From: a virus
Reading direction: 5' to 3' (one strand)
DNA length: 24,602 nucleotides
IMG/VR virus record: IMGVR_UViG_3300031957_002815
Span: 1 to 24,602 of that record
Under the pieces are notes generated by a model. The model worked only from the letters and a program-made list of their open reading frames with translations. It ran no database searches and was not told where the DNA came from. Positions 471-9,598 of this stretch are shown here, piece after piece. The position numbers and the translations under genes are program-made. Every line of letters begins with the position of its first letter. Position 1 is the first letter of the stretch.

Positions 471-515
471 CTCCCAAGGCTTTGTCATTTCATTTGATTC
501 TAGATAGTGCCACAC
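471..515. repeat. 45-bp perfect direct repeat, copy 1
   Basis: This stretch is identical over 45 bases to 828-872, exactly 357 bases away. Read on the minus strand it encodes the last residues of the primase-helicase (VWHYLESNEMTKPWE), followed directly by an in-frame TGA (468-470), and it carries the GGGAG ribosome-binding site of the PAPS-reductase-like gene. It lies in the short gap between that gene and the 100-aa orphan, so it looks like a leftover helicase 3' end. Confidence 0.95.
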
Positions 516-516
516 A

Positions 517-819
517 CTACGACTTCACTTTTTGATACCCATGCCTTCTCCAGTAGACGCCAGTCGCGCTGTCGTTTGCTTGTTCTATCTCCTCCTGATG
601 ATCAGCCCAAAAGATGTCATCGCTAACTAAGAAGTCGCCCCTCACTTGGGCCACTTCAAATCGCAGCATCGGGTATCGTTCTTCCATGCGCTTTTTGACC
701 TGCATGGCATAATCTTTTTCTGTGTACCGGCCATCCATATATGGTGTGCCAAGGAACAGAACAATCCATCCGACTTGATCTGTGACAGTTCTATTCCACT
801 GTGTGTTTGCTTCATTCAT
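517..819 (-). CDS. Hypothetical protein inserted between direct repeats (100 aa)
   Basis: I do not recognise this protein. It starts at ATG 817-819 rather than the TTG at 834, because GGGAGG (827-832) lies seven bases upstream of this ATG. It ends at TAG 517-519. The sequence is soluble-looking, with a short hydrophobic strand near the N-terminus (VGWIVLFLGTPYM), a charged middle (KDYAMQVKKRMEERYP) and a polar C-terminus; no cysteine cluster or membrane segment is seen. It lies two bases after the primase-helicase stop and is flanked on both sides by copies of a 45-bp repeat made of the helicase 3' end. This suggests it arrived as a small cassette by recombination. Function unknown. Confidence 0.8.
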   Translation of the reverse strand: MNEANTQWNRTVTDQVGWIVLFLGTPYMDGRYTEKDYAMQVKKRMEERYPMLRFEVAQVRGDFLVSDDIFWADHQEEIEQANDSATGVYWRRHGYQKVKS

Positions 820-821
820 CA

Positions 822-2861
822 CTATGCCTCCCAAGGCTTTGTCATTTCATTTGATTCTAGATAGTGCCACACGGCTGCGCCTGGGACGGCATGCGTCTTG
901 ACCACTGCCCCCTTATACTTTTGCACATAGGAAACCGCTTTCATTGCTGCTCTCTCACCGTTAGCTAATCCTGCATCACTGAGAGCTTCTCTCGCTAACA
1001 TCTCAAGTTCTTTGCGCTTGTAAAACTTGGTGCTACTCATGGCATCGACCACCACGCCTGCTATCTTGACCTCATCTTCTTCACTAAGCGGTGACTTCAC
1101 GTTTCGAGGTGTAAAATCGTTGACCTTCCACATGCCATCATCGAAGTCAAAACTTGCTAGATGTTCTTTTGGTTCACGGGCGTTACGCGCTTCGTAGAAA
1201 ACAGACACATCAGGCTTCTCGCCGCTGAGCTTCACGCCACTATCGAACCAACCGGCGAACACACTGCCGCCTCGTGCAGACATGAATGACTTATCATCTG
1301 CCCGCTCTTTGCCTGTATGATGAGCAATGATCACGCTGATACCGTGCATCTCTATCAGCATGTCAACACGATCAAGGAGCTTGCGTATCTCTGTGTTAGA
1401 GTTCTCCTCGCCATCGAAGAAGTTGATGATCGGATCGATCATGACAAGATCTGGTTTGTGAAACGCTATCTCTTGGCTGAACTGCTCGATGTCCTGATCT
1501 CGCATCAGGTTCTTTCGTAGCCTGCCGCTGATGATCAGATTGCTGTGACCCATCGACATGAGCTCTTGGTCGAACTCGAAGCGCCGATAGTAGGTGTCGA
1601 TACGCCGCTTCAAAAACTCTGCGATGATCTCGGCCTGGAACCACATCACCTTGAGCGGCCTGCTAAACTCGCAGTCCATGAAGTCTGTACCAGTGGTTGC
1701 CCCCGCTGCGAAGGCGCCTAGCCAATTGGACTTACCTATCTTTGGTTTGCCCAACAACAGCACCCGACTTTTTTGAAAGATAAACGCATCGCCCCAGAAC
1801 TGCTCGATGCCATCGTCTGTCATCGCAGACCACTGCTCTGCGTTGAACGGCTGGAGTCCTAGCGGCCCTTGATCTTGTTCTTTGTCACCTTCGCGCTTGA
1901 GTTCATCGAGCGGGTCTTCTTGTGACTGCAGTTGCTTGAGATCTTCGTTGATCTCTGTCTGCCACGTTGATGTCTGCCATGCGATGATGCCTGCGTTCAC
2001 ATCGTCTGGGTGCCGCTTGATGTGGCCGTTGACGATACTGATTGTCGTGCGCGTTACTTCGATCAAGTCCATGGGTGGCACACAGGACTGGTTCCAATCT
2101 TGAGCCTTGATCAGCACCTCGCGCATGCCCCAGCCTTCTTTGATCCACTTGCCAACCAGCCGTGCTAGTGTGTCGTTGCGACTGCCTTGTTCTTTCGGCT
2201 CCTCTGTCAGCTTGTCGCGGATGCTCTCGACTTTGTTGCCGGTGTTAAACACATGCACCTGTTGGATATCCGCTTCGCCCAGCAGTGGCAAGTCATCGAT
2301 TGAAGACACACCGTATGCTTGATCACACTTCATGTGATAGCCGACACTTGGTGCGACCATGATGTACCCGCCATCGCCTCGAACATCGAGCTTGTTCTGT
2401 CCGACGCTGTTGCGGATCAGCGGGTTGGCACCACCGATGGAATAGAAGTAGTGCTTCCCGCCTTTGGGCGAGGTTTGTGTTAGTGGTGTTCGCGTGATGC
2501 CACCTGCATCGATCCAGTTCACAGCATCGTCTGAGTCTGCATCGACCACGGCGAATGATATGCCGGTGATTGCAGCCCAGTTAGCACCAGGATATTGGGC
2601 ATGCCACTGGGTGATCTCGTCCTGGGATGGCTGGATCTTTTGATAGTGCTGCCATTTAACCCGTGGTGTTTTGGCCCACTTGGCTTTGAGATCTTCTTCG
2701 GCGTCGAATGGATGACGCTGTCTGAAATATTGTGGCACCACCTCGCTGGGCGAACCGCAGGGGATGATGTGCATGCCGTGCTCCCACATCGTGTGTAGGA
2801 GTTCTTCTTTTGCTTCGGGTGACATGGGCCCTTCAGTATCTGACGATAAGAAAGGCATCAT
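822..2861 (-). CDS. Bifunctional primase-polymerase / RepA-like AAA helicase
   Basis: A 679-aa replication protein expected to lay primers and unwind DNA at the phage fork. The N-terminal half has Prim-Pol features: VVDADS (105-110, catalytic DxD), GGKHYFY (134-140, histidine motif) and DVRGDGGYIMVAPS (159-172). A linker rich in charge and Gln (about 290-340) leads to a RecA-fold ATPase like RepA/AAA_25: Walker A GKPKIGKSN (371-379), Walker B LVMIDPI (472-478) and IIAHHTGK (511-518). The start is taken at ATG 2861, which overlaps the upstream stop as TGATG; a TTG at 2882 would add seven residues but lacks a better ribosome site. Its 3' end is duplicated downstream as a 45-bp repeat. The fused architecture is known from plasmids and phages. 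Confidence 0.9.
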   Translation of the reverse strand: MMPFLSSDTEGPMSPEAKEELLHTMWEHGMHIIPCGSPSEVVPQYFRQRHPFDAEEDLKAKWAKTPRVKWQHYQKIQPSQDEITQWHAQYPGANWAAITGISFAVVDADSDDAVNWIDAGGITRTPLTQTSPKGGKHYFYSIGGANPLIRNSVGQNKLDVRGDGGYIMVAPSVGYHMKCDQAYGVSSIDDLPLLGEADIQQVHVFNTGNKVESIRDKLTEEPKEQGSRNDTLARLVGKWIKEGWGMREVLIKAQDWNQSCVPPMDLIEVTRTTISIVNGHIKRHPDDVNAGIIAWQTSTWQTEINEDLKQLQSQEDPLDELKREGDKEQDQGPLGLQPFNAEQWSAMTDDGIEQFWGDAFIFQKSRVLLLGKPKIGKSNWLGAFAAGATTGTDFMDCEFSRPLKVMWFQAEIIAEFLKRRIDTYYRRFEFDQELMSMGHSNLIISGRLRKNLMRDQDIEQFSQEIAFHKPDLVMIDPIINFFDGEENSNTEIRKLLDRVDMLIEMHGISVIIAHHTGKERADDKSFMSARGGSVFAGWFDSGVKLSGEKPDVSVFYEARNAREPKEHLASFDFDDGMWKVNDFTPRNVKSPLSEEDEVKIAGVVVDAMSSTKFYKRKELEMLAREALSDAGLANGERAAMKAVSYVQKYKGAVVKTHAVPGAAVWHYLESNEMTKPWEA
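827..832 (-). promoter_or_regulatory. Ribosome-binding site that decides the start of the 100-aa orphan gene
   Basis: GGGAGG on the minus strand stands seven bases before ATG 819. Its first five bases belong to the 45-bp repeat, so the same repeat supplies Shine-Dalgarno bases to both the orphan and the PAPS-reductase-like gene. Confidence 0.7.
828..872. repeat. 45-bp perfect direct repeat, copy 2
   Basis: Identical to 471-515. This copy is the true 3' end of the primase-helicase gene, which here continues through one more codon (Ala) to TAG at 822-824. The two copies are in the same reading frame because 357 is a multiple of three. Confidence 0.95.
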
Positions 2862-3283: not shown

Positions 3284-3703
3284 ATGCAGGACGCTAACTG
3301 TTTGGCGCGGCAGATTGTCGGTGCGAGAAACAAAAAGGCAGAGCTAGACAAGCACATTAAAAAGCTTGAGCGAGATTTGCTCGATACCCAGTTGGTCAGT
3401 GCTCTACTGACTACGATCCATAACGAAGGCGGCGAAACCACAGACGGTCCTTACACCGTCGAGATTCCAAGGACTCACATTTGGGATCAGTCCATGGTCG
3501 ATGCAATCCTTGAGGCGATACCTCAAAGCGATTGGCCCTCCTTTGTTACCCAGCAGACCATCTACAAAATCGATATGCGTAAGTTCAAGGACTTTGCGGT
3601 CAACCATCCTAGCGAGGCTGGCCCATGGCACGCTGCGCACTCGATCAAGCTAGGTGATTCTAAAATCAAAAAAATCAACGCTGATAAACTAGAGGAGGAC
3701 TAA
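3284..3703 (+). CDS. Hypothetical protein of recombination unit, N-terminal coiled coil (139 aa)
   Basis: First gene of the rightward unit, starting at ATG 3284 after AAGGA about seven bases upstream. Residues about 8-40 are highly charged and helical (GARNKKAELDKHIKKLERDLLDTQ), likely a coiled coil. The rest is mixed, with THIWDQSMVDAILEAIP and a lysine-rich end (KLGDSKIKKINADKLEED). The stop overlaps the next ATG as TAATG, with GAGGAGG embedded in its last codons, so it is coupled to the Sak4-like ATPase. The placement and coiled-coil start recall nuclease-inhibitor (Gam-like) or recombination accessory proteins, but I see no diagnostic motif, so function stays unknown. Confidence 0.8.
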   Translation: MQDANCLARQIVGARNKKAELDKHIKKLERDLLDTQLVSALLTTIHNEGGETTDGPYTVEIPRTHIWDQSMVDAILEAIPQSDWPSFVTQQTIYKIDMRKFKDFAVNHPSEAGPWHAAHSIKLGDSKIKKINADKLEED

Positions 3704-4476
3704 TGTCTTTACTTCAGCAAATCACGAGCACCCGTCCAGCGGGTGGTCCGATACCACCAGTGCGGATGAACATCCAAGGTACAGACGGTATCGGCAAAAG
3801 CACCTTTGGTGCAGGGTCATTAGACCCGGTGTTCATCCAAGCGGAAGACGGCTTGTCTTTCATCGATGTGCCACGCTTCCCCCAGGCAAACACTTGGGGC
3901 GAGTTGCTAGAGCAGATCAAGACTCTGGTGCACGAGGAGCAGTCATTCAAGACTGTTGTGCTTGATACCACAGACGCTGCAGCCAAGCTTGGCGAAGAAT
4001 ATGTCTGTGAGCAGAACGGCTGGTCATCAGCAGCTGATCCCAAAGCAGGCTACGGTGCGTTCTACGTTGCCGAAGAAAACGCTTGGGTGCATCTGTTGTC
4101 AGGGCTCAATGTTCTGCACACACAGAAGGGCATGAACGTCATTCTGCTCAGCCACGTTGCTTCCAAGGCATACAAAGATCCTGAACTGGAGCCGTATGAC
4201 CGCTGGGAGATGCGTTGCAACAAGAAGGTCAACTCACTCATCAAGGACTGGGTGGACTTTAACTTGTTTGCAAACTACGAAACGCAGTTGATCAAGGATG
4301 GCCAGAAGGCCAGAGGTGTCAGCTACGGCAACCGTGGTTTGTTCACGCAGTTCGCTGCAGCTTATGACGCCAAGTCTCGTTTGGCTTTGCCAAGCAAGCT
4401 TGAGTTTTCATGGAACGCTTTCATGGAAGCATACACCGCAGCACTCGCTGCAAACACCAACACTGAAGCAGCTTGA
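3703..4476 (+). CDS. Sak4-like AAA/RecA-fold recombination ATPase
   Basis: A 257-aa protein with a single RecA-like ATPase core of the AAA_24/Sak4 kind: Walker A GTDGIGKST (26-34) and Walker B VVLDTTD (85-91). NVILLSHVAS in the middle fits the sensor strand that follows Walker B in this family. Sak4 proteins are RecA/Rad51-related single-strand annealing or exchange factors that work with a phage single-strand binding protein; the DUF669 gene directly downstream fits that pairing. The start at ATG 3703 overlaps the upstream TAA (TAATG) with GAGGAGG upstream. ATPase assignment is strong; the recombinase role comes from family and context. Confidence 0.87.
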   Translation: MSLLQQITSTRPAGGPIPPVRMNIQGTDGIGKSTFGAGSLDPVFIQAEDGLSFIDVPRFPQANTWGELLEQIKTLVHEEQSFKTVVLDTTDAAAKLGEEYVCEQNGWSSAADPKAGYGAFYVAEENAWVHLLSGLNVLHTQKGMNVILLSHVASKAYKDPELEPYDRWEMRCNKKVNSLIKDWVDFNLFANYETQLIKDGQKARGVSYGNRGLFTQFAAAYDAKSRLALPSKLEFSWNAFMEAYTAALAANTNTEAA

Positions 4477-4489
4477 GGAGTAATCAGCT

Positions 4490-4990
4490 ATGTCTTTAGA
4501 CGATCTAAACATCAATCTTGATGATGTAAAGGAAACTTCGGGGGGTTCTGCGCCGTTCCCGCCAGGTGAATACACGCTCTCTGCAGCGTTGTATGAGCGA
4601 AAAACGTCGAGCAACGGCAATCCTATGTTGGAGTTTGAATTCAACGTGGTTGGACCAACTCACGCAGGCCGTAAAGTCTGGGATCGGTTTGTACTTAACA
4701 ACCAAGTGGGCGTTGGGCGTCTTAAATCTTGGATGATTGCGTCAGGCGGTAACCCATCTGGGAACCTCAGTGAGGACATGGTGCGTGGCTGCATGGGCAA
4801 GCCCTTCTCAGCGAACATCGTGATTGAAAAGGGTGGTTCTAATCCTAGCGGCGGGACGTATGCAGACAAAAACAAGATCTCTTCGTTCAAGTCTGGTGCT
4901 GGCCCAGCACAACCACACGCTCAGACTGAGCAGCCACAACAGGCACCGGCACAACCTGCCGCTGGGCTGAACACGGCAAGCTGGTCGTAG
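4490..4990 (+). CDS. DUF669-type phage single-stranded DNA-binding protein
   Basis: 166 aa, starting at ATG 4490 with GAGGAG about ten bases upstream. PFPPGEYTLSAALYERKTSS, then GNPMLEFEFNVVGPTHAGRKVWDRFVL and the GRLKSWMIASGG helix follow the pattern of DUF669, an OB-fold-like family encoded beside phage recombinases. The C-terminal 40 residues are a flexible tail rich in Pro, Gln and Ala ending in NTASWS; it lacks the acidic tip usual in bacterial SSB. It probably coats single strands and loads the Sak4-like ATPase encoded just upstream. Family call is fairly sure, partner relation is inference. Confidence 0.82.
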   Translation: MSLDDLNINLDDVKETSGGSAPFPPGEYTLSAALYERKTSSNGNPMLEFEFNVVGPTHAGRKVWDRFVLNNQVGVGRLKSWMIASGGNPSGNLSEDMVRGCMGKPFSANIVIEKGGSNPSGGTYADKNKISSFKSGAGPAQPHAQTEQPQQAPAQPAAGLNTASWS

Positions 4991-5959: not shown

Positions 5960-6439
5960 ATGACGGATTCAAAGGCCGACTTACTCAAGCGCATTGAAGT
6001 GCTTGAGAAGGAGAACAACGAGCTTGCAAATGCTAATTCACGTTACAAAACAGAGAACCACAATCTTCGAGACTTCAACAAAGAAGAAAGGCTTCGATTG
6101 GATCGTGATTATCTTGGGCCTAGCGCGGACAATTTTTTCTTCATAGAAAATATGGGAGCAGGCATTCATGGGTTTACGCATAACGAGGATGGTAAAGAGC
6201 GAAAGAATCTATTCATCATACCTTTTGTAGGTTTCTCCGAGGATGACCGTCATTTGTTGTTTGAACTTATGGATGCCCTTGCAAAATGTTATGAATCTAT
6301 ACCTTGGTGGGAAGATGGCGAAGGAAGATCTGTAGGCTTGAAAGCTGTATTCACAGACACCCATTTGGGCGAGTGGCATCCCACTAAATCTCTTCCTAAA
6401 CCAGCACCAGAACCAGCGCCAGAGGATAAAGATCAATGA
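5960..6439 (+). CDS. Hypothetical protein with N-terminal coiled coil (159 aa)
   Basis: ATG 5960 lies one base after the upstream TGA, implying coupling. Residues about 4-48 form a coiled coil (DLLKRIEVLEKENNELANANS), followed by a compact domain with FFFIENMGAGIHGF and LLFELMDALAKCYE, and a Pro-Ala-Glu tail (KPAPEPAPEDKDQ). The gene is more AT-rich than its neighbours by eye. Its layout parallels the preceding 228-aa protein, but residue similarity outside the coiled coil is not obvious. It ends in an ATGA overlap with the next gene. No family recognised. Confidence 0.8.
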   Translation: MTDSKADLLKRIEVLEKENNELANANSRYKTENHNLRDFNKEERLRLDRDYLGPSADNFFFIENMGAGIHGFTHNEDGKERKNLFIIPFVGFSEDDRHLLFELMDALAKCYESIPWWEDGEGRSVGLKAVFTDTHLGEWHPTKSLPKPAPEPAPEDKDQ

Positions 6440-6711
6440 AAGAAGATGACTTTGAAATGGAAATGGAAGGCGGCAGTGAGGATCACGAGTACGCCATGGA
6501 CTTGATCAGAAACTTGGTGAAGGTCAGCAAAGAGGAGCTAGAACCACGCATCCTGTTTGAGGTCATGATGGTGTATTCACTAGGCTGGAACCTAGCTCAT
6601 GGTGATCATGCGCTCATGACTCAATTGTTGCCACAGGTTGTGGAGAGCATCAATGATGGCTCTTACACCGATGTGGCAGAAATCATGGAGGACGAAAGGA
6701 TATGTCATTAG
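6436..6711 (+). CDS. Small acidic hypothetical protein (91 aa)
   Basis: Begins in an ATGA overlap with the previous gene. The N-terminus is strikingly acidic (KEDDFEMEMEGGSEDHEYAMD) and the rest reads as two or three helices (LIRNLVKVSKEELEPRILFEVMMVYSLGWNLA). Acidic early phage proteins of this size often bind host enzymes or mimic DNA, but there is no recognisable motif, so that is speculation. It overlaps the start of a 58-aa ORF by ten bases. Confidence 0.75.
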   Translation: MKEDDFEMEMEGGSEDHEYAMDLIRNLVKVSKEELEPRILFEVMMVYSLGWNLAHGDHALMTQLLPQVVESINDGSYTDVAEIMEDERICH

Positions 6712-6878
6712 CAACAGAAGACTCATCTAAGTTCAAAGAACGTAAGCGTGCCGTGCTGCGATGCATTTACAAATCACCAGAGGACAGTTGGGCCAAGAAC
6801 TATTGGCGCAACACCTACCGCAAACTCATGGAAGAAAGAAGAAATGGAGCTCAGGTACTATCAGCGCGAGGCCGTTGA
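6702..6878 (+). CDS. Small basic protein (58 aa) bridging to the helicase
   Basis: ATG 6702 overlaps the end of the acidic gene and is preceded by GGAGG about ten bases upstream and AAAGGA closer in. The frame runs to TGA 6876-6878, overlapping the helicase start (6844) by 35 bases. The product opens MSLATEDSSKFKERKRAVL and is rich in Arg, Lys and aromatic residues (SWAKNYWRNTYRKLMEERR), compatible with a nucleic-acid-binding helix pair. Without it, about 130 bases between the acidic gene and helicase would be an anomalous gap in a packed unit. Family unknown. Confidence 0.6.
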   Translation: MSLATEDSSKFKERKRAVLRCIYKSPEDSWAKNYWRNTYRKLMEERRNGAQVLSARGR

Positions 6879-8529
6879 TGCAGCGGTCCACTGGTTCAAC
6901 ACCCAGGACACGCACCCGCTCATCGTTCTACCGACAGGGGCTGGCAAGACAGTTGTTTTCGCCACACTAATCAAGGAGATTTTTGAGCGGGAGCCCGACT
7001 GCAGGATTCTGATCCTAGCTCACCGGCAAGAACTGGTCAGCCAGGCAGAGGATAAACTCAAGAAAGTATGGCCATGTGCGCCATCAGGCATCCTGGCTGC
7101 GGGATTGAACCAATACGAAGTCGATGGGCGTATCGTCATCGCCAGCCGAGATACCCTGGCTACGCCGACTAGGCTCAACACCGTTGGTGACTTTGACTAC
7201 ATCATCGTAGACGAGGCGCATCATGTGGCGCCAGATCCCAAGACCCGGTATCGCAAGATCTTTGATCACTTTGAGTCATCTATCTGGAAAACGCCGCGCA
7301 TACTGGGTGTAACCGCTACACCCTATCGTATGGGCCAGGGCTTCATATACGGCCTTGAGGAGCACTTTTTCTCAGGCGTTGCCTACCGTATAGGCATACC
7401 TGAAATGATCCAACAGGGCTTCCTGTGCCGCCTGTCGGCCTTCAAGGTAAACGATGAGGCTGTGATCGATGCATCAACTGCGCGGGTCAAGTTCAAGGGC
7501 GGCGACTATCGCGAGTCGGACATCGAGAAGCTGGCCATGGAAGATCAAACCATGCTGGCCATCATCGATGATTGGGTAGAGAAGGCTTACACCAAAGGCC
7601 GACTGAGCACAGTGTTCTTTTGTATCACGGTGGCTCATGCAGAAAAGATGTGCATGTATCTCAGACAAGCAGGCATAGAGGCTGCAGTTGTGACCGGCGA
7701 AACACCACAAGCGGAGCGAGAAGACATCCTTGAGCGATTCGAGGATGGCCAGATCAATGCGTTGTGTAACGTGGCTGTGTTAACTGAGGGCTGGGATGCG
7801 CCACGCACCGACTGCATCGCATTGCTCAGACCGACCAAGTCGCTAGGCTTATACGTTCAGATCTGTGGACGAGGCATGCGCACTTGGGGTGACAAGAAAG
7901 ACTGCATGCTGCTGGACTACGGCGAGAACATGCAGCGCCATGGGTGCATTGATACTGCTAGACCAGATAAACCTGTCAAAGAAGATGAAAGTCCATTTTG
8001 GGTTTGCTCTGAATGTGTTGGCGTTAATGATATTGATCGGAAAACCTGCATCGAATGTGGCGCGCTTAAACCTGCACCAATAAAGCAGCCGTCATTGTTA
8101 GGTGGTAGTGAAGAGCTATCGCCCGGATACAATGGGCGTGAAGCTGCAGCCACAAGAGAAGCGGCAGAAGGTCATGTTCTGTCAGATGAACTTCAAGATC
8201 CCGTTCAGGTGCATGAGCGAATCAAGAACGTAGAGTGGGTTTCAGCTGAGTTAAAAACATCGAAGAATGGCAACGACTATCTCAATGTTATGTTTTTAAG
8301 TCCCGGCGACTATTGGCCACAAAACATGCCAATCATGATTGGCATGAAAGGTAAGGCCGGTACGATGGCAGAGAAAAAGTGGCGGTCACTAACCAACGGC
8401 TTCCCGTGCCCAACTAACATTAATCACGCTGTTGATCTGGTGAAACATGTAAAGGTGATGAGCCACATCAAACAAATCACTGTAAGAAAAGAAGGAAAAT
8501 ACTGGAATGTCGTTAGCGTCCATTTTTGA
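6844..8529 (+). CDS. Superfamily 2 DEAH-box helicase with zinc-ribbon-like insert
   Basis: 561 aa from ATG 6844. Motifs in order: Walker A LPTGAGKT (29-36), motif Ia ILAHRQEL (57-64), DEAH box (123-126), TATP (157-160), motif V VLTEGWDAP (312-320) and motif VI QICGRGMR (339-346). After the helicase core a four-cysteine cluster, C388, C391, C402 and C405, looks like a zinc ribbon. The last 100 residues form a separate unidentified domain. A start at 6748 would add 32 residues with no family support that read across the 58-aa ORF, so 6844 is preferred. It probably unwinds or remodels DNA in recombination-dependent replication beside the nuclease, whose gene overlaps its 3' end by 23 bases. Confidence 0.9.
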   Translation: MELRYYQREAVDAAVHWFNTQDTHPLIVLPTGAGKTVVFATLIKEIFEREPDCRILILAHRQELVSQAEDKLKKVWPCAPSGILAAGLNQYEVDGRIVIASRDTLATPTRLNTVGDFDYIIVDEAHHVAPDPKTRYRKIFDHFESSIWKTPRILGVTATPYRMGQGFIYGLEEHFFSGVAYRIGIPEMIQQGFLCRLSAFKVNDEAVIDASTARVKFKGGDYRESDIEKLAMEDQTMLAIIDDWVEKAYTKGRLSTVFFCITVAHAEKMCMYLRQAGIEAAVVTGETPQAEREDILERFEDGQINALCNVAVLTEGWDAPRTDCIALLRPTKSLGLYVQICGRGMRTWGDKKDCMLLDYGENMQRHGCIDTARPDKPVKEDESPFWVCSECVGVNDIDRKTCIECGALKPAPIKQPSLLGGSEELSPGYNGREAAATREAAEGHVLSDELQDPVQVHERIKNVEWVSAELKTSKNGNDYLNVMFLSPGDYWPQNMPIMIGMKGKAGTMAEKKWRSLTNGFPCPTNINHAVDLVKHVKVMSHIKQITVRKEGKYWNVVSVHF

Positions 8530-9598
8530 TCGGATCGATGAGCAACTAGCGGAGAAAGAAAACCGCTTTCGTGGCCACCTGGGCTTTAGCGGCATTGGCG
8601 ATGACGATGAGTACAAACTGTGGATGGGCTTTCGCTGGTGCTTACCGGCAAGCTTCAGTGGCAGGATGCTGCGGCTGTTTGATCTAGGCAACCGCATCGA
8701 GGACCAGGTGGTTGAGAACATACGCGATACTGATGTGGTGTCCATCGCCTCACATGACAAAGACGGCAACCAGTTTCGAGCATCGTTCTTTGGCGGGCAC
8801 TTTGCAGGCTCCTGTGACGGCCTTCTCAAGGGCGTTCTGCCACCCCCTAGCGAAGAGGTGATCTTGCTTCTGGAAGTCAAGAGCGCCAACGACAAGCGGT
8901 TCAAAGAGCTCGTAAAGCTTGAAAGCTACGAAGCCTGGAGTGAAACCTATCGATGGCAGATCCATGCTTACATGGGTGCGCTTGGCCTGACCAAGTGCAT
9001 GGTAGTTGTAGTCAACAAGAACGACAGCAGTGTGTACACAGAGATCATCGACTTCAATCCACAGGTTTGGGAAAAGGCGCAAGCCAAGGCGCAGCGTATC
9101 ATCTGCAGTGATGCACCTGACAAGAGCACGCGCATGTCTGAAAAGGACTGGCGCATGAAGAACGAGTCGGAGTTGTATCGCAACGTCTACTTTGGTCGCC
9201 GCCTGCCTGAGTCGGTTAACTGCAGAAACTGCAAAAACGTGAAGCCACTAACTGAATCAAACGGCGCCGTGTGGTTTTGCAAACGCAAGCAGCAGTCGTT
9301 GTCGCTTGACGCACAAAGAGAAGGCTGCAAGGACCACTTGTGGATACCAGAGCTTGTGAATGCCAACCATCTGCCGGGCAAGAGCACAGAGGATTCTGTG
9401 GCCTATCAGGTTGGGATCATGGAGTTCTACAACTCAACGTCTGAGGTGACGGGTGAGTATCACTACAGCAGCGTAGAGATGCGTGAACTATCTAAGGCAG
9501 ACTTTGAAGCGGGCTTGATGATGACCGGCGAGAGCGTGAGGCGTGAGTTTCCTGGCAGCTATCTTGAGAATGTTGACGAGCGCAAGATGCCGTTCTAG
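8507..9598 (+). CDS. PD-(D/E)XK exonuclease of RecB/Cas4-like type with four-cysteine motif
   Basis: 363 aa; ATG 8507 lies inside the helicase 3' end, preceded by GAAGGAAAA. The nuclease core is visible as E65 (GNRIED), D104 (GSCDG), E123-V-K125 (LLEVKS) and the QIHAYM helix (Q151), the pattern of PD-(D/E)XK exonucleases that resect ends. Four cysteines follow, C239, C242, C258 and C274, spaced like the zinc or iron-sulfur clusters of Cas4/AddB relatives. With the Sak4-like ATPase, DUF669 protein and DEAH helicase it completes a plausible phage recombination set. Nuclease fold is confident; metal type and polarity are not determinable here. Confidence 0.85.
   Translation: MSLASIFDRIDEQLAEKENRFRGHLGFSGIGDDDEYKLWMGFRWCLPASFSGRMLRLFDLGNRIEDQVVENIRDTDVVSIASHDKDGNQFRASFFGGHFAGSCDGLLKGVLPPPSEEVILLLEVKSANDKRFKELVKLESYEAWSETYRWQIHAYMGALGLTKCMVVVVNKNDSSVYTEIIDFNPQVWEKAQAKAQRIICSDAPDKSTRMSEKDWRMKNESELYRNVYFGRRLPESVNCRNCKNVKPLTESNGAVWFCKRKQQSLSLDAQREGCKDHLWIPELVNANHLPGKSTEDSVAYQVGIMEFYNSTSEVTGEYHYSSVEMRELSKADFEAGLMMTGESVRREFPGSYLENVDERKMPF

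Follow-up and report, generated by a model that had tools for sequence, protein, structure and literature searches.

The window analyzed here, the whole 24,602-nucleotide stretch of the virus record IMGVR_UViG_3300031957_002815, carries on its minus strand a primase-helicase gene with Prim-Pol, PriCT_1, and AAA_25 domain matches (822 to 2882, with a likely ATG start near 2861), a small accessory gene encoding a 100-amino-acid protein of family F5 (ATG at 819 to stop at 517; 517 to 819), and a PAPS-reductase-like gene (phrog_424; 2 to 466). The latter is cut by the window end but complete, with 267 amino acids, in the overlapping contig L001 (5330 to 6133). A longer, TTG-started open reading frame for the 100-aa gene was discarded as an artefact of the ORF finder. 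On the plus strand, a gene for a Sak4-like single-strand annealing recombinase (3703 to 4476; phrog_124, E 1.6e-33; Pfam AAA_24) adjoins a DUF669/single-strand DNA-binding protein gene (4490 to 4990), the arrangement of a Sak4-type recombination module, and a Cas4-domain/RecE-like exonuclease is encoded at 8507 to 9598 (phrog_1990, E 4e-61). An Rfam search of the region returned nothing, and the repeat region described below had no DNA match among annotated phages.

The 3' end of the helicase gene is present twice, as two identical 45-mers at 471 to 515 and 828 to 872, both in minus-strand coding orientation and spaced by 357 bp, a multiple of three that places both copies in one register. The match ends at the flanks of these 45 bp, its extended form amounting to 50 nt at 96%, and no other direct repeat in the window comes near it in length; we estimate the chance expectation of a perfect 45-base repeat in 24.6 kb to be of the order of 1e-19. 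Copy 828 to 872 is the true 3' end of the primase-helicase gene and reads VWHYLESNEMTKPWE-A-stop on the coding strand, the final GCA TAG being followed by TG and the ATG of the 100-aa gene. Copy 471 to 515 reads VWHYLESNEMTKPWE-stop in the register of the helicase and is followed by TGAT and the ATG of the PAPS-reductase-like gene. Since it lies behind the stop codon of the 100-aa gene (517 to 519), it is not read as part of the helicase and forms the untranslated leader of the gene that follows. Both copies terminate in GGGAG, a few bases ahead of the following ATG. Direct comparison of the copies confirmed what an earlier note on this DNA had read from the letters: identity and common frame of the 45-mers, a stop right after the common residues in one copy and Ala-TAG in the other, and a GGGAG ribosome-binding sequence supplied by each copy to its next gene.

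An assembly artefact might be suspected in a metagenomic record for which no reads are at hand. However, a second record, L001 (also L125; IMGVR_UViG_3300031972_002175), has 5,795 bp in common with the window with a single mismatch and contains both copies at the same places, and each of the two junctions occurs as a natural allele in relatives. The two-copy arrangement is thus not obviously an assembly error, and we consider this explanation highly improbable. L001 reaches past the window end and includes the whole PAPS-reductase-like gene, then a DNA (C5-type) methyltransferase gene, and later a small-terminase-like gene. Two long frames overlap in L001 at 6109 to 7238, where 6285 to 7238 encodes the DNA methyltransferase and the other frame is probably spurious.

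Relatives of the helicase were found in 248 viral stretches, 80 of which were retrieved for comparison; scanning for the helicase 3' end with a degenerate pattern yielded 92 stretches. Two copies occur in just one of these 92, the near-identical overlapping contig L001, so the outcome that the earlier note had named as fatal to its reading, two copies in all relatives, was not found. Its suggestion to look for relatives lacking the 357-base unit was borne out by 12 distinct contigs, L004 and L005 included, in which the helicase gene is directly followed by the PAPS-reductase-like gene. The junction in these empty slots is mostly GGGAG-TGAT-ATG (or GGGAA-TGAT-ATG) and corresponds to that behind copy 471 to 515 of the window. 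The 100-aa gene is carried by 16 distinct contigs besides the overlapping one, none of them with two copies. In one of these, L022, the filled junction reads GGGAG-GCATAGTG-ATGAATGAA, as behind copy 828 to 872 of the window (GGGAG-GCATAGTG-ATG); the leader GCATAGTG-ATGAATGAA is common to both, and the inserted gene and its L022 homologue share 90% identity. At the other end of the gene, the carriers depart from the window. L006, L007, L071, and L072 have the start of the PAPS-reductase-like gene within the end of the 100-aa gene, in L022 and L027 another gene comes next, and the right junctions of L006, L007, L022, and L027 are unlike that of the window. Since these carriers hold the 100-aa gene without a second copy, the repeat is unnecessary for its residence at this site. 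The N-terminal residues of the PAPS-reductase-like protein vary by lineage in L006, L007, L071, and L072, where its start codon lies inside the 100-aa gene end.

In a helicase tree of 68 rows, from which the repeat-coding tail was left out, the sister of the window is L004 (SH-aLRT 97) and the next by path is L005; both have an empty slot. Aligned to either of them, the window matches through the final base of GGGAG, 312 bases are then skipped (516 to 827, composed of the leader GCATAGTG and one gene), and the alignment restarts 45 to 46 bases earlier in the relative. From there it continues gap-free into the PAPS-reductase-like gene, with no recipient base lost. The simplest account by parsimony is that an empty site likely gained a 312-bp one-gene segment together with a 45-bp duplication. 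The ancestral order proposed in the earlier note, helicase and then PAPS-reductase-like gene with a later insertion, is supported by the 12 empty contigs, the matching junction letters, and the empty state of L004 and L005, although fast turnover at this slot makes two empty tree neighbors modest evidence for the ancestral state. Conversely, the two-copy state might be ancestral and the empty relatives might have arisen by deletion between the repeats, which, judged from the sequence, would yield the exact empty junction. We regard this as improbable: among contigs with this helicase end, only the window and its overlapping contig have two copies, the gene-bearing L006, L007, L022, and L027 combine a single copy with a different right junction, and the copies are still identical, which implies a recent duplication.

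Both copies contain a private base (CTATCTAGAATC) that is absent from all remaining contigs that share the ACAAAGCC end. This suggests a single template and a recent origin, or homogenization of the copies at a later time. Recombination between the repeats would restore the empty allele, so that an on/off polymorphism is possible; no contig with an empty slot and the private base of the window (CTAGAATC) was among those found. Over 200 bp, the left flank is nearest to L005 (95.5%), and the right flank, on the side of the PAPS-reductase-like gene, most resembles L007 (96.3%), followed by L005 (95.3%). With about 95% identity to L005 on either side, both flanks fit an empty-slot recipient. The right joint in the window is GTCGTAGTGTGTGGCAC, and the 100-aa protein ends in HGYQKVKS. 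Because none of the contigs found is a donor whose gene has this right end (the codons after HGY), the right joint and any microhomology in it are unreadable.

The same product might have arisen by unequal crossover between a filled and an empty genome, joining the end of the inserted gene to a point 45 bases before the slot and drawing the flanks from different parents. Filled and empty alleles do coexist in close relatives, and the product would be identical. However, the same private base in both copies and the closeness of both flanks to one empty-slot relative would demand parents of one lineage, or later homogenization, and we consider this route possible but rather less likely. Exchange of the ordinary kind has touched the helicase gene as well. 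Its body most resembles L004 (identity up to 99%), and its last ~300 bp are L005-like (in the two final bins, 95% versus 75 to 79% for L004), a mosaic implying at least one additional homologous exchange that ended in the helicase 3' region. The L005-like part (about 95%) spans window positions 873 to 1170 (minus strand), which implies a recombination breakpoint within the helicase gene.

Taken together, we think it probable that an empty-slot ancestor gained the one-gene segment from a related phage, duplicating the 45-bp helicase end, by the action of Sak4-type agents. The recipient would have been an ancestor with the helicase gene directly followed by the PAPS-reductase-like gene, and the donor of the segment a related phage, probably met in co-infection. 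The left join would have formed within the conserved helicase 3' end common to these phages and the right join about 45 bases upstream in the helicase end of the recipient, so that these 45 bases were doubled. Such an event would have cost the recipient no base and kept the helicase C terminus with one residue added, and each copy would supply a GGGAG ribosome-binding sequence to its next gene. Likely agents are the Sak4-type annealing protein, the single-strand DNA-binding protein, and the exonuclease of the phage itself, a role that we infer by association from the presence of these genes in the window; we also assume that the event was a single step. Paired with a single-strand DNA-binding protein, Sak4 performs single-strand annealing in vitro and recombination in vivo (PMC5928155), and phage annealing proteins are reported to recombine short or divergent sequences (PMC8093625, PMC5499656). 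A conserved 45-bp gene end would thus be a plausible substrate for an annealing protein.

Insertion at a gene 3' end with restoration of that end is also what a site-specific cassette integration would produce, as at att sites in gene 3' ends or integron attC sites. Yet the single gene of the 312-bp gain is not an integrase gene, the segment ends lack long inverted repeats and stable hairpins, other carriers have no second copy, and the right ends of the slot vary. We therefore judge site-specific integration very unlikely. The segment ends fold no better than shuffled sequence, giving no sign of an attC-like hairpin, and no integron integrase was seen among the part of the window ORFs that was scanned. 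Terminal inverted repeats, as expected of a transposable element, were likewise absent from the segment ends, and the usual transposon target duplications are shorter than 45 bp.

The 100-aa protein, called an orphan in the earlier note, is no orphan, as relatives are encoded in 53 viral contigs. The family has the invariant motifs F-GTP-MDG-Y and DDIFWA. More distant relatives (about 34 to 50% identical) are encoded by further uncultivated phages, mostly between DNA polymerase and exonuclease genes, neighbors that suggest a role near replication or recombination. In the contigs L180 to L209, distant relatives lie mostly directly behind DNA polymerase genes and belong to no known family. Neither Pfam nor PHROG holds a family for the 100-aa protein or its distant relatives, a moderately confident AlphaFold model (pLDDT 76) matched nothing in PDB or BFVD at E below 0.001, and no relatives were detected in bacterial or archaeal genomes by a pattern scan or in annotated phages. 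It is tempting to speculate that the protein is a useful accessory, perhaps related to replication or counter-defence.

The helicase 3' end is a recurrent gene-exchange slot in these phages. Among distinct contigs, the first gene after the helicase has 15 states, with at least 37 changes on the 68 tips of the helicase tree compared to a mean of 49.5 in shuffled data. Presence of the 100-aa family requires 14 changes, no fewer than the shuffled mean of 14.5, and the family is scattered on the tree as if shuffled. The first gene differs in 101 of 132 pairs with helicases at least 96% identical, and slot content differs even between contigs with ~99% identical helicases (L012/L016, L018/L061, L020/L022, and L081/L082). 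In 13 detailed pair alignments, the left edge of the difference lay at most about 12 bases from the helicase end, except where a gene is shared (window versus L022 or L006), and the right ends varied from case to case. The sequence TGGGAG at the helicase end is conserved in 64 of 75 contigs. Further along, the island contains genes for a Mom-family protein, a GIY-YIG protein, QueC, a radical-SAM QueE-like protein, a C5 methyltransferase, and a queuine-transglycosylase-like protein. Between helicase and terminase, as in L034, L082, L100, L022, and L102, DNA-modification genes appear interchangeable, the PAPS-reductase-like gene also among them. Since DNA-modification genes lie between helicase and small terminase, the island contents may track host restriction.

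A second case is probably preserved in L049 and L050, where the 100-aa gene lies between genes of family F13 and family F4. The 22-bp 3' end of F13, AAGAGAGGATCGAAGCGCATGA, reappears where the 100-aa gene ends, with 1 mismatch in L049 and 2 mismatches in L050, so that a near-perfect repeat is present on both sides of the gene (L049, 4478 to 5297; L050, 3516 to 4335). Flanking-repeat scores were at least 36 for the window, 19 for L049, and 16 for L050, compared to a best score of 11 among 869 control junction pairs from the same contigs, with the F13-F5-F4 trio set aside; L047 scored 12, a weaker, borderline trace. Judged from these letters, L049 and L050 seem to record an earlier event of similar form behind another upstream gene, although no F13-F4 contig lacking the 100-aa gene was found from which a direction could be read. 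We tentatively suggest a repeatable route by which small genes would enter packed operons in this phage group: whichever gene lies ahead of the insert would have its 3' end copied to the far side, a route that the 100-aa family would have used twice (45 bp of helicase, 22 bp of F13).

The window thus appears to have caught a gene gain in a packed operon of an uncultivated marine phage shortly after it happened. The empty parent type and a donor-like type are known, as are the two junctions, and the gain is tied to a slot where many different genes were exchanged while the helicase stayed nearly unchanged. This provides a testable case for the part played by annealing recombinases and short conserved gene ends in shaping the accessory genes of phages.

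Similar arrangements are known from mycobacteriophages. Gene 68 of mycobacteriophage Island3, an 85-aa orphan, is inserted after gene 67 relative to Brujita; the 3' end of this insert repeats about 60 bp from the 3' end of the upstream gene, and Brujita has a single copy of this repeat (PMC3029335). The window likewise has the upstream gene 3' end repeated behind its insert and one copy in relatives. However, the Island3 repeat lies inside the inserted gene and encodes its last 18 residues, whereas that of the window lies beyond the stop of the inserted gene; and gain and loss are not separable for Island3, whereas relatives point to gain in the window. Mycobacteriophage LRRHood, in the same text, has a 1.35-kb insertion with 29-bp direct repeats on each side, resembling the window in that its accessory genes lie between direct repeats located at a gene 3' end, of which relatives have a single copy. 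Its insert comprises four genes including a repressor, compared to one gene in the window, and the passages considered describe no recurrent slot for it. Like a moron, the extra gene of the window lies between genes that are adjacent in relatives. Morons typically have their own promoter and terminator (PMC3029335), whereas the gene of the window relies on the operon and a duplicated ribosome-binding sequence: from the spacing, an 8-bp leader before the ATG and a repeat right after the stop leave no room for either element. Lambdoid and T4-like phages have short conserved boundary sequences and PeSL cassettes, according to PMC3029335 and PMC4503421, and in both settings short conserved module edges serve as recombination sites; the conserved edge in the window, however, is the coding 3' end of a helicase gene and has no promoter-stem-loop. 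The window case is of the same kind as Island3 and LRRHood; beyond these, it offers a likely direction of change, a slot that is used recurrently, and possibly another event involving the 100-aa family.
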